A DNA stretch of 20,051 nucleotides from a virus, in the IMG/VR virus record IMGVR_UViG_3300046467_002639, positions 1 to 20,051 of that record. One strand, written 5' to 3'. Of this stretch, positions 1,996-15,245 are shown piece after piece. A program made the translations under genes and the position numbers. Positions within the stretch are counted from its first letter, which is position 1, and each line of letters begins with the position of its first letter. Below the pieces are notes generated by a model. It was not told the DNA's origin, ran no database searches, and saw only the letters and a list, made by a program, of their open reading frames with translations.

Positions 1996-2946
1996 TCATT
2001 CCTCCGTTAATTTTGCATAAATTCTTGCCTTCCCTTCACTTCTATATTTTTGCTGTGTTTCAAAGGGAATCTTTTCTTCTTCTACTAGCCTGGCATAACT
2101 TATCCTGCCCTTGGCCTGAGTAGTATGACATTGAACGGTTGGTGTCTTAAATGGGCCGTTGTGTTCTTCTAATAACAACAAGGACAAATCTCTCTTTTTG
2201 TCTTTTAGTTTTTTTAGTTTGGCATCAATATCCAGGTGCTGTCTTACAACCTCGGCCAGCTCTAAAGTAAGGTTAGTATCCCTGACTTCTTTATGAATAA
2301 TGCCTGGTGCCTCAGAAAACTTAGCAATTAACTCTGGGTTCTTAACCGCTTTTTTATAATAATCCATGAATTCTTTAGCCTTGGGTATATAGGTCTTGGA
2401 CCAACCAGGATCACGGTCAACCCACTCTTGGTGGCCTTCTCCGGTTTCAGGATAGTATTGAAAAAACAACATATCATCTATATCCATACACTCCATGCCT
2501 AGTTGCATTTGATGCCAATACCCTCTCTTTTGTTCTTTAACATTACTAACAGCTTTTGATACCGGGCATTTAATTTCAACCGCTGATGTTGTCCCTTTTT
2601 TGCCTTCTAATAAAATTCCATCAGGGCTCATACCAAGCCATTCATATTTTGGATGAGAAACAAAAGGAGAGCTGGTAATTACATAGCCAAGTTCTTTTAG
2701 TTGTTGTGCGGCAAGTGGCTCACTATTTGTTCCGTGTGCTATGGCAAGCTTGGCCATCTCTGGAAAAGGGTCTTGTGGTAGTCCGTGGGCTTGCCTATAC
2801 ATTTCCCTGGCCAACACTTCCCATTGAGCCATAGTGTCTCCTGGGGTCCATTGGTCTTCACCAAAAGCCTTAGCACACCTACTTCCTGTTACTTTATTTG
2901 ACCTCATTTCGTGCCACTCAGGGGTCCCTTGTTTTACTTGGCTCAT
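1996..2946 (-). CDS. YqaJ/lambda-exonuclease-type viral recombinase exonuclease
   Basis: A 316-residue enzyme of the PD-(D/E)XK superfamily, expected to degrade duplex DNA 5' to 3' and leave single-stranded tails for annealing. The motifs are in order: GTPEWHEMR (7-15), KVTGS (18-22), HGTNSEP (71-77), the catalytic core SPDG (107-110) with Asp109, EIKCP (124-128) with Glu124 and Lys126, then YWHQMQLGM (143-151). Length is typical for YqaJ-like phage exonucleases. Its ATG overlaps the ERF stop (ATGA at 2943-2946), so the two are translationally coupled, the same pairing as lambda Exo with Beta. Residues 225-316 are helical and extend beyond the nuclease core. The family call is firm; the polarity is taken from lambda Exo. 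Confidence 0.93.
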   Translation of the reverse strand: MSQVKQGTPEWHEMRSNKVTGSRCAKAFGEDQWTPGDTMAQWEVLAREMYRQAHGLPQDPFPEMAKLAIAHGTNSEPLAAQQLKELGYVITSSPFVSHPKYEWLGMSPDGILLEGKKGTTSAVEIKCPVSKAVSNVKEQKRGYWHQMQLGMECMDIDDMLFFQYYPETGEGHQEWVDRDPGWSKTYIPKAKEFMDYYKKAVKNPELIAKFSEAPGIIHKEVRDTNLTLELAEVVRQHLDIDAKLKKLKDKKRDLSLLLLEEHNGPFKTPTVQCHTTQAKGRISYARLVEEEKIPFETQQKYRSEGKARIYAKLTEE

Positions 2947-3638
2947 TTAATGTCCTCTATTTTGATTTTAGGTGTTTTGCCTAGTGCGGCATAAAGATCT
3001 TTATAGGTGTCGTTTATTTTATCCTGGAGGTCCTTGTTCCCAGCACTTTGGGCCATAGAATTGTACTGAGCAAAAACCCTATCTCTACCTTCGTCTGTTC
3101 CTTCCGATGCAACACCTGCCCTGAATTGTTCCAGGGTTTCTTTGTCTTCATCTTCTGGGGCGGGAGTAGTTGCAATTGCCTCTATTTCTTCTGGCTCCTC
3201 GGTGCCCTCAAAAGGAACACAAAAGAATTGAATTAAAGCATCCCGGTAGGCAAAACTTCTTGCTGCCTGTAGATCCTTTCCCTGGGTACTTTTAGATTGC
3301 CCTAGATAGGCCGTGTCTACATAACTCCCATCTTCCAAAGAAAGAAACCTTAATGTTCCTTGTATAACAGTATGGGTGGTTTTCCCCTCCATATTAATTG
3401 AAACTAACTCCTTTTCTCCTCCGTTTGGAGGGAGCGGGCAGGTCACTATTTTTTCTGTTTCTAAAACAGGAGAAAAGGTTTGATAAATTTGATCTATGCC
3501 CCTAAAGCTGTATCCACTGTTCCCGATTGCAACCTTTCCGCCTTTAGGAATTGGGTGCTCCTTTAAATAATTTTGAACCCTTCCCAGGGCTGCGTAAATT
3601 GCTTGATGTTTGCCTTGTATAACTGTTTGTCCAGACAT
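2943..3638 (-). CDS. erf: ERF-family single-strand annealing protein
   Basis: A 231-residue recombinase that should coat single strands made by the neighbouring exonuclease and anneal them to complementary DNA. The ERF core covers about residues 10-145: a first helix (AIYAALGRVQNYLKE), the phrase GYSFRGIDQIYQTFSPVL (42-59) that corresponds to the family's 'Y-Y--ledI---l-PiL', and the characteristic helix LQAARSFAYRDALIQFFCV (123-141), related to 'GKALTYAKRYALLQAFGI'. The C-terminal third is acidic then helical, as in other ERF proteins. It is the first gene of the leftward operon, with an AGGAGG ribosome site just upstream of its start at 3638 and a palindromic promoter region behind it. Confidence 0.9.
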   Translation of the reverse strand: MSGQTVIQGKHQAIYAALGRVQNYLKEHPIPKGGKVAIGNSGYSFRGIDQIYQTFSPVLETEKIVTCPLPPNGGEKELVSINMEGKTTHTVIQGTLRFLSLEDGSYVDTAYLGQSKSTQGKDLQAARSFAYRDALIQFFCVPFEGTEEPEEIEAIATTPAPEDEDKETLEQFRAGVASEGTDEGRDRVFAQYNSMAQSAGNKDLQDKINDTYKDLYAALGKTPKIKIEDIK

Positions 3639-5886: not shown

Positions 5887-6067
5887 GCAATACAAACAAT
5901 TTTGTACGGAGAATGTTTATTTTCGGAACAAAACAAAAGAAGAGAAAACAATAAATGAAAAGCATTCTTATTGTCATAAGAAAAAAGGGTATTGGGTTTT
6001 AAGAGGGGACACTGGTTGGCTGGTGGCCTTTGTTAGTATAATAGATGGTCGGGTATATTTACCCTAG
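5828..6067 (+). CDS. Small hypothetical protein
   Basis: A 79-residue ORF overlaps the previous gene by 59 bases. No clear ribosome site precedes the ATG at 5828. Internal ATGs at 5870 and 5876 would give a 65- or 63-residue protein that clears most of the overlap and may be the real start. The conserved-looking part is the C-terminus: HSYCHKKKGYWVLRGDTGWL followed by VAFVSIIDGRVYLP, which reads like a compact beta sheet. Function unknown. Confidence 0.5.
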   Translation: MKTESLVTLKKITNMKMAIEQYKQFCTENVYFRNKTKEEKTINEKHSYCHKKKGYWVLRGDTGWLVAFVSIIDGRVYLP

Positions 6068-12031: not shown

Positions 12032-12459
12032 TTTGGCCGCTTAACTCAACCAAAGCAACCCTGTCCAGGTTTGCATATCATCCCAAAGCCACACTAGGTA
12101 AGATCGTTATAGATGATCTAGAACTATATACAGCTGAGAGGCCTTGGCGGGGGAATAAAAAAAACACCTCCTGCATTCCAACTGGTAAATATACCTGTAA
12201 GAGATATGACTCAAAGAGATTTGGAGAAACCTTTGAGCTTACTAATGTACCAGGAAGGACTTATATTCTTTTTCATGTAGGCAACTATCCGGAAACAGAT
12301 TCCCTGGGATGTATTCTATTGGGTACTAATGTCATGCAAGGAAGAGCCGGTGTTGGTGTTAGCGTGAAAGCAATGAAGAAGTTTAGAGAGAAGTTGAATG
12401 GCATCAATGAATTTAAAATCATCATTAAAGATCATGTCCCCTACGACTGGTCAGAATAA
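12028..12459 (+). CDS. DUF5675 protein, candidate cell-wall or lysis protein
   Basis: The product is a 143-residue protein that spans the whole DUF5675 domain: TLSRFAYHPKATLGKIVIDD, YTAERPWRGNKKNTSCIPTG, YTCKRYDSKRFGETFEL, VPGRTYILFHVGNYPETDS, LGCILLG, then a helix (VSVKAMKKFREKLNG) and a final strand (FKIIIKD). His83 followed by Ser92-Leu-Gly-Cys95 recalls the His/SxGC active site of L,D-transpeptidases (YkuD), so peptidoglycan binding or cleavage is possible. DUF5675 has no proven activity that I know of. The neighbouring holin-like gene makes a lysis role likely but not certain. Confidence 0.85.
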   Translation: MIWPLNSTKATLSRFAYHPKATLGKIVIDDLELYTAERPWRGNKKNTSCIPTGKYTCKRYDSKRFGETFELTNVPGRTYILFHVGNYPETDSLGCILLGTNVMQGRAGVGVSVKAMKKFREKLNGINEFKIIIKDHVPYDWSE

Positions 12460-12952
12460 AGAAGAGGCAGACTGTTTTAAGCTCTGCAATGAGTGTAAGG
12501 AATATAAGGACATAGATCGGTTTGAGTATCTTGATGGAGTCAGGCGTTATCGTTATAACAAATGCCGGACCTGCCGAAATCGGGGAAGAAGAAAAGGCCA
12601 ATCAAAATCACCTAAGAGATTCATAAGCTACCTATATACAGGTATAAGAAACAAACGATCCAAAAGTCATGTCTTCACCATCACTAGAGAAGAGCTCCAG
12701 GCCAAGTATGAAGAACAGAATGGCTGTTGTGCTATCACTGATATACCTATGACTTACATTAAGGATGGCACCGGTAATCATGGTACCAACATCAGCGTTG
12801 ATAGAAGAGATAATGAGGCTGGATATACTTTAGAGAATGTGTGGTTGGTGTGCCATGTTGTTAACATGATGAAACATACAATGGACATGGAAGATTTGGT
12901 ATCATGGTCTAAGTTCATTTACAAGAATAGGAAGATATATGAAAGGAAATAA
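12434..12952 (+). CDS. HNH-like endonuclease with N-terminal zinc ribbon
   Basis: I take the ATG at 12434 (172 residues), which limits the overlap with the DUF5675 gene to 26 bases; ATGs at 12398 and 12407 are also open. An N-terminal four-cysteine ribbon (LCNECKEYKDIDRFEYLDG then KCRTCRNRGRRKG) precedes a basic linker and an HNH-type core: EEQNGCCAITDIPM, ISVDRRDNEAGYTLENVWLV, CHVVNMMKHTMDMEDL. The usual catalytic 'DH' is DR here, as in a common subgroup with 'SVDRIDN--GYT--NVQLVC---N-MK'. HNH proteins beside terminase genes can aid DNA packaging in cos phages. This one directly precedes the small terminase and overlaps it by 14 bases. Homing endonuclease is the alternative. Confidence 0.78.
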   Translation: MSPTTGQNKEEADCFKLCNECKEYKDIDRFEYLDGVRRYRYNKCRTCRNRGRRKGQSKSPKRFISYLYTGIRNKRSKSHVFTITREELQAKYEEQNGCCAITDIPMTYIKDGTGNHGTNISVDRRDNEAGYTLENVWLVCHVVNMMKHTMDMEDLVSWSKFIYKNRKIYERK

Positions 12953-13382
12953 AACACTAAGGCAAAGAAAGGAAGAGTTCGTTAGTCATTTTATGGTTAC
13001 TAAGAACGCAACTGAGGCTGCAAAGCGATGTGGTTACAGTGAGAAGTCTGCATACAATCAAGGTTATCGGTTGATGAAGGATGATGATGTCCAAAAAATG
13101 CTGGCTATTGAGGTTCAAGATCTAAAGGAAAGGCATCTGGATGACCTGGATTCAATCGTAGACGCAATGAAAGACGAAGCCCTGGGTAACATACCAGGTC
13201 ACACCGCAGGTAGTAGAGTAAAGGCTTTGGAGCTGCTGGCTAGACACTTTCATATGCTTGATGATCATTCAAAAATTACTGTTGAGCATCAGGAAGAATG
13301 GTTTAAAACCCTTGAGGAAGAGCTTAAAGATGTTGACGGGACTACCACCAGCCAGGGCCACAAAGAGCATCACCTTAACTAG
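12939..13382 (+). CDS. terS: Terminase small subunit
   Basis: This 147-residue protein of the Terminase_2 type should recognise the packaging site on phage DNA and regulate the large subunit. The N-terminus matches the family: TLRQRKEEFVSHFMVTKNAT then EAAKRCGYSEKSAYNQGYRL (helix-turn-helix, 21-45) and KDDDVQKML. A central helical oligomerisation region (55-115) follows, then a Glu-rich, His-rich tail (SQGHKEHHLN) that probably contacts the large subunit. The gene overlaps the HNH-like gene upstream and is separated from the large subunit by a G-rich non-coding stretch of 160 bases. Confidence 0.9.
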   Translation: MKGNKTLRQRKEEFVSHFMVTKNATEAAKRCGYSEKSAYNQGYRLMKDDDVQKMLAIEVQDLKERHLDDLDSIVDAMKDEALGNIPGHTAGSRVKALELLARHFHMLDDHSKITVEHQEEWFKTLEEELKDVDGTTTSQGHKEHHLN

Positions 13383-13542
13383 GGGATACTCCCACCCCGA
13401 CCATGTCAGTGAGTGCTCACTATCGCTACAACCCCCATACTATAAGGGCCTTGGGGGCCCGGGGGGTGCGGGCCACGACCCTATATACTATATATATACC
13501 TACATATCCCTAGGGGGGGCTTGTTTTTAGGTACCCATACAA
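13383..13542. other. G-rich structured spacer between terminase genes (possible packaging site)
   Basis: These 160 bases contain no credible gene and differ sharply from their surroundings. They hold GGGA-TAC-TCCC (13383-13393), AGTGAG-TG-CTCACT (13408-13421), competing hairpins GGGCC-TTGGG-GGCCC (13446-13460) and GGCCC-N9-GGGCC (13456-13474), an alternating TATA stretch (13481-13498) and a run of seven G (13513-13519). Structured sites near terminase genes can be cos or pac sites, or a structured leader for the large subunit. Which applies here is unknown. Confidence 0.5.
13446..13472 (+). other. Canonical G-quadruplex motif
   Basis: Four G-tracts of 3, 5, 6 and 3 bases are separated by loops CCTT, CCC and TGC. 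This meets the standard G3+N1-7 rule on the coding strand, so both the DNA and the terminase mRNA could fold into a quadruplex. Such a motif is uncommon in an AT-rich phage. Confidence 0.65.
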
Positions 13543-15114
13543 ATGGAAAAAATAGATTTCAAAAAAATTATAAAAAAATTTAAGGAAAACCTTCCTTTTT
13601 ATGCCAGGAGTTGTTTAAAGATCGTAGATAAGCAGGGCAATTTAATCCCACTAGAGCTCAATGATGCCCAGCTTATGTTAAATAAACAAATAGACAAACA
13701 ACAGGCTCATCATAACCGGGTGCGAATTCTCATCTTAAAGAGCAGACAGACCGGAATCTCTACTTATTGCCAGGCTAGGGGATTTTGGCAAACGGCAACC
13801 AAGCAGAATCAAAACGCTGTAGTGGTATCTCACTTAACAGAATCCACAAAATCTATATTTAATATGGTAAAAATGTATTACGACAATCTGCCACACCCCC
13901 TGGTTCAACCCGACTTAAAAGAATCCACTACCACTAGTCTTGCTTTTACACACGGATCTCGTTGGCGTATTGCTACGGCCCGAACAGCGGAGGTCGGCAG
14001 AGGTTGGACTACGAATTATTTACACGGATCCGAGGTCGCTTTCTATCCCAACGCAGACATATTACCCGGATTGTTACAGACAGTCCCCGATCAGGGCTCT
14101 GAGATATTATTAGAATCCACAGCTAACGGAGCCGGAGGATGGTTTTATGAAGCCTGTATGAGAGCACTCAGAAAAGAAGGGGAATGGGAGCTCTGTTTTG
14201 TGCCCTGGACCATCATGCCGGAATACCGCAGGGACCCAGATCATTATTTTGAACGCACTTCAGAAGAAGATATTTTGGCGGAAATGTATAATTTAGATGA
14301 TGCCCAATTAAATTTTCGTAGATTAAAGATTCACGACTTAGGTGGAGAAGATTTGTTTAGGCAGGAATACCCGATTACACCCCAGGAAGCTTTTTTAACT
14401 TCAGGCAGATTATTTGTAGAGCCGCAGTATATTGACGTAGCACACAAGGAATGCTATTCCCCGATTTGGCGAGGTGATATGGTTAATAAAAAACTAGATA
14501 AACACAAAGAGGGCCATTTAAAAATTTTCGAGAAACCCCTAGAGAGCTTACGTTATTGTATTGGGGTCGATGTTGCCGAGGGTCTAGAGCACGGAGACTA
14601 CAGCTGCATCCAGGTGCTGGATCATTTAGGTAACCAAGTGGCAACCTGGCACGGACACATAGATCCATTTGATTTTGCCGAAACCATCTGCTCAGTTGCA
14701 ACTTACTACAACAAGGCCTGGGTATTAGTAGAAAGAAACAATCACGGTCTTACTACTATTAGAAAAATGCAAGACATGGGTTATCCTAATATGTATGTAG
14801 AACAAGCCGTAGACGATGCTTATGTGGATCGCCTAACCCGGAGAGCGGGGTTTTTAACAACAACCAAGACAAAGCCGTTAATAATTGATAACTTAGCACA
14901 TTTACTAAGACAAGGAGAGTCGGGTGTTTCTTGTGAAGACTTGGTTGGAGAAATGCGTTCCTATGTTATGGATGCCAGGGGTATAACAAATGCACAGGAA
15001 GGGTGTTATGATGATAGAATAATGGCGTATTGTATAGCATTGTTTGGATTGAACTCAATGCCCAGAACGCACCGAAGAAAATTTAAAAACGAGAGAAGGG
15101 TGTTTTACACTTAG
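13543..15114 (+). CDS. terL: Terminase large subunit (packaging ATPase and nuclease)
   Basis: A 523-residue motor that pumps DNA into the prohead and cuts it. The ATPase domain has the Walker-A-like LILKSRQTGIST (63-74), Walker-B-like YLHGSEVAFYP with Glu164 (159-169), and the coupling motif ESTANGAGG (191-199). The RNase-H-fold nuclease follows: GVDVAEGLEHGDYS with Asp343, LVERNNHG with Glu397, and the final acidic pair in CYDDRIMAY (Asp490, Asp491). All key residues are present and length is typical. No strong ribosome site precedes the ATG, and the G-rich spacer lies immediately upstream, so its expression may be controlled by leader structure. It is followed by a small membrane protein gene. 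Confidence 0.95.
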   Translation: MEKIDFKKIIKKFKENLPFYARSCLKIVDKQGNLIPLELNDAQLMLNKQIDKQQAHHNRVRILILKSRQTGISTYCQARGFWQTATKQNQNAVVVSHLTESTKSIFNMVKMYYDNLPHPLVQPDLKESTTTSLAFTHGSRWRIATARTAEVGRGWTTNYLHGSEVAFYPNADILPGLLQTVPDQGSEILLESTANGAGGWFYEACMRALRKEGEWELCFVPWTIMPEYRRDPDHYFERTSEEDILAEMYNLDDAQLNFRRLKIHDLGGEDLFRQEYPITPQEAFLTSGRLFVEPQYIDVAHKECYSPIWRGDMVNKKLDKHKEGHLKIFEKPLESLRYCIGVDVAEGLEHGDYSCIQVLDHLGNQVATWHGHIDPFDFAETICSVATYYNKAWVLVERNNHGLTTIRKMQDMGYPNMYVEQAVDDAYVDRLTRRAGFLTTTKTKPLIIDNLAHLLRQGESGVSCEDLVGEMRSYVMDARGITNAQEGCYDDRIMAYCIALFGLNSMPRTHRRKFKNERRVFYT

Positions 15115-15122
15115 GAGAACAG

Positions 15123-15245
15123 ATGGACTTAATATTAATATTTATTATTGCTTTCTGCTTGGGAATTTATGCAGAAAGGAAGTATGATTATCAAATAGAC
15201 ACAGTAACAGAAAAGTTTAAAAATTTATTTAGATGGCGAAGGTAA
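15123..15245 (+). CDS. 40-residue single-pass membrane protein
   Basis: This short gene sits between the large terminase and the portal. It has a good AGGAG ribosome site (15113-15117). MDLILIFIIAFCLGIYAERK forms an N-terminal transmembrane helix, followed by a charged tail (YDYQIDTVTEKFKNLFRWRR). It overlaps the portal start by 13 bases, which could couple translation, since the portal lacks its own ribosome site. It may be a small lysis or membrane factor; the role is unknown. Confidence 0.65.
   Translation: MDLILIFIIAFCLGIYAERKYDYQIDTVTEKFKNLFRWRR

Follow-up and report, generated by a model that had tools for sequence, protein, structure and literature searches.

A conserved, single-copy non-coding site behind the terminase small subunit gene is a candidate packaging site in uncultivated marine phages

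Only a few phages have known packaging sites, and a location near the terminase genes is expected for such sites. What, then, is the role of a G-rich non-coding spacer that separates the genes for the small and large terminase subunits (TerS and TerL) in a virus known only as a 20-kb record? The window analysed here, meaning the whole stretch of 20,051 bases, gave no match to known phages by DNA similarity. It carries, in order, genes for an HNH/endonuclease VII-like protein, TerS, the spacer, TerL, the portal protein and the major capsid protein, with the HNH gene overlapping the start of TerS (Table 1). Elsewhere in the window a gene at 7350-7763 matches a RecA-dependent nuclease family (PF16786), and YqaJ and ERF recombination genes lie at 1996-3638 on the strand opposite to it. 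The original prediction was that the spacer may be a packaging site, a G-quadruplex (G4) or other fold that controls translation of TerL, or both.

Table 1. Coordinates of the terminase locus and of the features of its spacer, in positions of the window.
Feature	Position	Strand	Basis or remark
HNH / endonuclease VII-like protein	12398..12952	+	phrog_1035, E 1.1e-23; adjoins TerS; possible cleavage partner
Terminase small subunit (TerS)	12939..13382	+	PF03592, E 2e-15; phrog_51, E 1.1e-18; proposed reader of the site
Non-coding TerS-TerL spacer with the site	13383..13542	+	ORF limits; every clade-1 relative has such a spacer
Weakly conserved upstream block CACTATCGCTACAACCCCCATAC	13418..13440	+	Recognisable in a subset of relatives only, e.g. 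CACTATC..AACCGCAT
Canonical G-quadruplex motif	13446..13472	+	Present in the window; unconserved (4/52)
Core: G-run 1, GTGC, GACCC here (GGTACC in most relatives), ATAT-rich stretch ending TATACC	13461..13500	+	Alignments of relatives
Right module TAGGGGGGGCTTGTTTTTAGGTACCCATAC: G-run 2 (13513-13519), T-run, GTACCCATAC	13511..13540	+	Resembles TAGGGGGGGCGGTCTTTATGAGAGTACCCATAC of relative L216
Terminase large subunit (TerL)	13543..15114	+	phrog_2, E 2.7e-34; PF03237 just under the cut-off; relatives found

The spacer features that had been described are present. Its coordinates are exact, TerS ending at 13382 and TerL starting at 13543, and the canonical G4 GGGCCTTGGGGGCCCGGGGGGTGCGGG (tracts of 3, 5, 6 and 3 G) lies at 13446-13472 and is the only one in the window when both strands are scanned. 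The run of seven G was located at 13513-13519, and GGGCCC, CCCTAGGG, GGTACC and a TATA run were all found. Moreover, the 20,051 bases hold only two runs of at least six G or C and both fall within the spacer, which points to more than chance. As had been supposed, no phage element of this form was described in the literature searched, which comprised open-access papers only.

Relatives were collected by searching viral contigs twice with TerL and by a single pattern scan. Those of clade 1, whose TerL is 71-88% identical to that of the window, provided 52 distinct versions of the site. It is kept in all 52, that is, in every relative that reaches the spacer. The notion that the terminase genes normally abut is thus untrue of this phage family, every clade-1 relative having such a spacer; at the control junction, that between TerL and the portal gene, the genes overlap or abut in most relatives examined. 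The TerL-portal gap measures 118 bases in the window (15115-15232) and 197 in L001, and holds a possible small gene.

The order of elements in the clade-1 site is G-run 1, GTGC, GGTACC (in most relatives), ATATACATATA and another G-run, six or more bases long. An approximate consensus is GGGGaGTGCTGGaCAgGGTACCtcATATACATATAtACCC, followed by a C-rich stretch of variable length and at least six G. The second run is found in every complete clade-1 sequence, one sequence ending early at the end of its contig. Over 231 pairs the core has a mean pairwise identity of 78% (computed over nearly the same stretch as the core of Table 1), compared with 42% at four-fold sites of TerL and 49% in adjacent spacer, and core identity exceeds TerL four-fold identity in 99% of these pairs. 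Therefore, this non-coding core is under strong purifying selection. The site is also solitary. Contigs of 35-55 kb each contain one copy, and a model of it (R1) has one significant match per contig in 14/14 clade-1 contigs, the window included.

Two pairs of loci deserve mention. In L012 and L054, TerL seemingly starts with a TTG within the T-run just past G-run 2, and in some phages the region of the start codon may therefore overlap with the site. In L005 and L049 the element is intact and the TerS upstream of it is apparently mostly deleted, leaving a short frame fused to a TerS remnant; this is either a genuine deletion or a misassembly.

Which property of the site does selection maintain? 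A G4 or RNA fold that controls translation of TerL would agree with the canonical motif in the window and with the lack of a ribosome-binding site before TerL. That lack is real, as first remarked, though none is obvious either at the window genes at 6045, 7871, 11777, 12028 and 15233. Comparison of the G-tracts across relatives did not uphold the G4 as a conserved feature, the four tracts of the canonical motif being conserved in only 4/52, and it was rejected as the element. Nor did the spacer prove to have a notable RNA fold: its energy is no better than that of shuffled sequences (z = +0.80; 160/200 shuffles fold at least as well), and of eight single elements folded, seven had z > 0 and the other -0.42. 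Consensus folding of the relatives gave 0 pairs with changes on both sides, Rfam returned no match and no tRNA was found. A structured RNA element was rejected as well, showing neither covariation nor a stable fold. With, moreover, a site far from TerL in another clade (below), the G4 and translation-fold readings fail, and we regard control of TerL translation as highly improbable. As neither a G4 nor an RNA fold is conserved, it is most likely the sequence of the duplex DNA that selection keeps.

The position of the site was informative in clade 3, whose TerL is about 55% identical to that of the window. Here TerS lies about 2.5 kb before TerL, and the interval contains small genes, a DUF5675-like gene and an HNH gene that abuts TerL with no spacer. 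A conserved non-coding site is still found directly after TerS, about 2.3 kb from TerL. It consists of a G-run, GGTTCCATG some 30-40 bases on, another run of G or C, and GAGAGTACC; abbreviated, it reads G-run...GGTTCCAT...GAGAGTACC, right behind TerS. Model R2 gave one significant match in each of four large clade-3 contigs. Neither clade's model detects the site of the other clade, and a common origin is therefore suggested, rather than proven by sequence, on the basis of position, a layout of G-runs and a short right module. The last of these is seen in some clade-3 members such as L216, whose right-hand part matches positions 13511-13540 of the window in TAGGGGGGGC, T-rich bases and GTACCCATAC.

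In a third group (TerL about 56% identical) TerS is followed by a G-run site with GGGTGCTTCC and then by TerL, the open frame of which starts less than about 40 bases from the site. No site was found in the more distant TerS relatives L347 and L348, and none was recognisable in the region before TerL of CRP-7 or in EBPR podovirus 1, in which the terminase genes overlap. Isolates are remote, their best TerL matches being only 33-35% identical, and a search of genome contigs returned a single distant match. The number of G-runs varies: downstream of GGTNCCAT, L216, L258, L103 and L097 carry several (up to three) per site, some of them 10-12 bases apart, and doubling also occurs in clade-1 members L037-L046. 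In another branch, L101 and L104 have an inverted repeat, CCCTAGC.CCAG...CTGGGCTAGGGT, between HNH and TerL, about 150 bases or less upstream of TerL. This is a different type of spacer and is perhaps a packaging or terminator site.

Divergence of the site was also compared with that of its neighbours. Within clade 1, distances between elements correlate with TerS distances when TerL is accounted for (partial r 0.48, permutation p 0.0025), and not with TerL distances when TerS is accounted for (partial r 0.07, p 0.29), both genes adjoining the site. In placement as in divergence the site follows TerS rather than TerL, with the caveat for divergence that TerS may just carry more signal than TerL.

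We propose that the spacer contains the site at which the terminase recognises the genome and initiates packaging, of either the cos or the pac type, and that it is read as duplex DNA by TerS. We put the probability of this at roughly 0.6. It is the best explanation for a single-copy stretch of protein-readable DNA that is fixed beside the gene for the DNA-recognition subunit and diverges together with it. Conservation, single copy, a place directly 3′ of TerS whatever the position of TerL, lack of RNA structure and co-divergence with TerS are observed. The packaging half of the original prediction has thus gained support from selection, copy number, the fixed place 3′ of TerS and divergence that follows TerS, whereas the translation half has not stood, given no covariation, no excess stability and a clade-3 site some 2.3 kb from TerL. 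Under the proposal, TerS, or a TerS ring together with TerL, would recognise G-run 1, GTGC, GGTACC, the ATAT tract and G-run 2 in the duplex. TerL would then cut the concatemer at or near the site, perhaps together with the HNH nuclease encoded alongside, and the DNA would enter the capsid.

The type of site is hinted at from two sides. The HNH nuclease gene adjoining TerS hints at cos. The closest characterised TerL proteins are those of Stx phages, which we take to belong to the 933W group, although about 33% identity is too distant to assign a packaging group. The 933W group is listed as headful (PMC5000459); on this ground one would not expect a precise cos site, and the distant kinship hints at pac. 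All of the larger contigs checked were classed as linear with no end repeats, and these may be fragments.

Comparison with known systems shows likenesses to several. In HK97, TerS requires a 15-bp part of cos that lies 15-29 bp away from the cut and includes an A-tract and a specific G, and cleavage of cos in vitro is stimulated by the HNH protein gp74 (PMC11331095). A duplex site putatively read by TerS would resemble such a cos site (TerS-bound, HNH-assisted, with a 3′ overhang), and, like cos sites, the site here is single-copy and near the terminase genes; the window also has an HNH gene beside TerS, as do 3′-overhang cos phages. However, in clade 3 the HNH gene is beside TerL and not TerS, the nearest characterised relatives of the window TerL are not HK97-like, and the site here is longer, has two G-runs and lies 3′ of TerS. 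The pac sites of the headful phages P22 and SPP1 are near or within TerS and start packaging; pac of P22 spans 22 bp within the TerS gene, and SPP1 uses several contacts (PMC9611059). The site described here is likewise near TerS, but unlike these it is a long, very strongly conserved stretch of non-coding DNA.

Herpesvirus pac1 offers a third comparison. It has an A/T-rich tract flanked by C-runs and is recognised by a terminase (PMC10763189), and G4 formation by pac1 in vitro has also been reported (PMC13386867). Some relatives (L042, L216 and L258) have two G-runs 10-12 bases apart, and in L042 and L216 the bases between them are mixed or A/T-rich; the window lacks such an arrangement. The likeness is one of layout and we claim no membership; pac1 lies near a terminus and has a pac2 partner, and the G4 is unconserved here. 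A broader idea, that G-runs spaced by A/T-rich DNA form a TerS-read class of packaging signal with a pac1-like layout, common to a large uncultivated marine phage group, strikes us as decidedly unlikely.

A site that heads the structural operon could instead control transcription, either as a terminator of the upstream transcript, made of a hairpin-like C-run/G-run and a T-run, or, through its ATAT-rich core, as a promoter from which TerL and the head genes are transcribed late. In the window and in some relatives the C-run, G-run and T-run do look like an intrinsic terminator, though a weak one (TCCCTAGGGGGGG CTTGTTTTTA), but many relatives have lost the T-run or have it displaced (TATGTAATTTT, GGTTTCTT) and the C/G-run stem is without two-sided change. 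A single copy per contig argues against a promoter family, no sigma-70-like match was found in the spacer, and the clade-3 site lies elsewhere in the operon, yet still after TerS. We therefore consider a role in transcription unlikely. The G-rich single-copy site beside AT-rich DNA, with an HNH gene nearby in the window, would also suit a replication origin, a recombination site or the recognition site of an HNH homing enzyme. In clade 3, however, where HNH abuts TerL, the site stays with TerS, and no relative was seen with an empty or interrupted site, making this group of functions very unlikely.

The ends of contigs bear both on packaging and on the quality of assembly. There are 8 right ends within 400 bp downstream of TerS and 16 in the next 2300 bp. 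Left ends in clade 1 number 9 within 700 bp upstream of TerL, and the three 700-bp bins farther out contain 4, 4 and 5. One contig (L236) begins inside G-run 1. Contig ends thus cluster weakly near the site; they are scattered and do not share a single position, many contigs run across the site, and such ends are a weak proxy for genome ends. Assembly breaks in conserved DNA shared between strains could explain the clustering. Homopolymer G-runs are error-prone and contigs often break nearby, as would be expected if the site itself were an artefact of assembly or a chance of composition. Against this, many metagenomes independently yielded this site on assembly and its variation is ordered and selected, and we give such an origin almost no credence.

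Taken together, these data point to packaging initiation as the probable role of the site. For specialists, the useful aspects are the strength of its conservation and its position following TerS. There is still debate over the way in which TerS reads DNA (PMC9611059), and the many natural variants of the candidate site, each with a matching TerS sequence, make a recognition code testable. Were the broader class with a pac1-like layout to be true, it would suggest that the terminases of herpesviruses and of this phage group favour the DNA shape of poly-G. Moreover, the candidate site offers a way to predict the genome ends of uncultivated marine phages.
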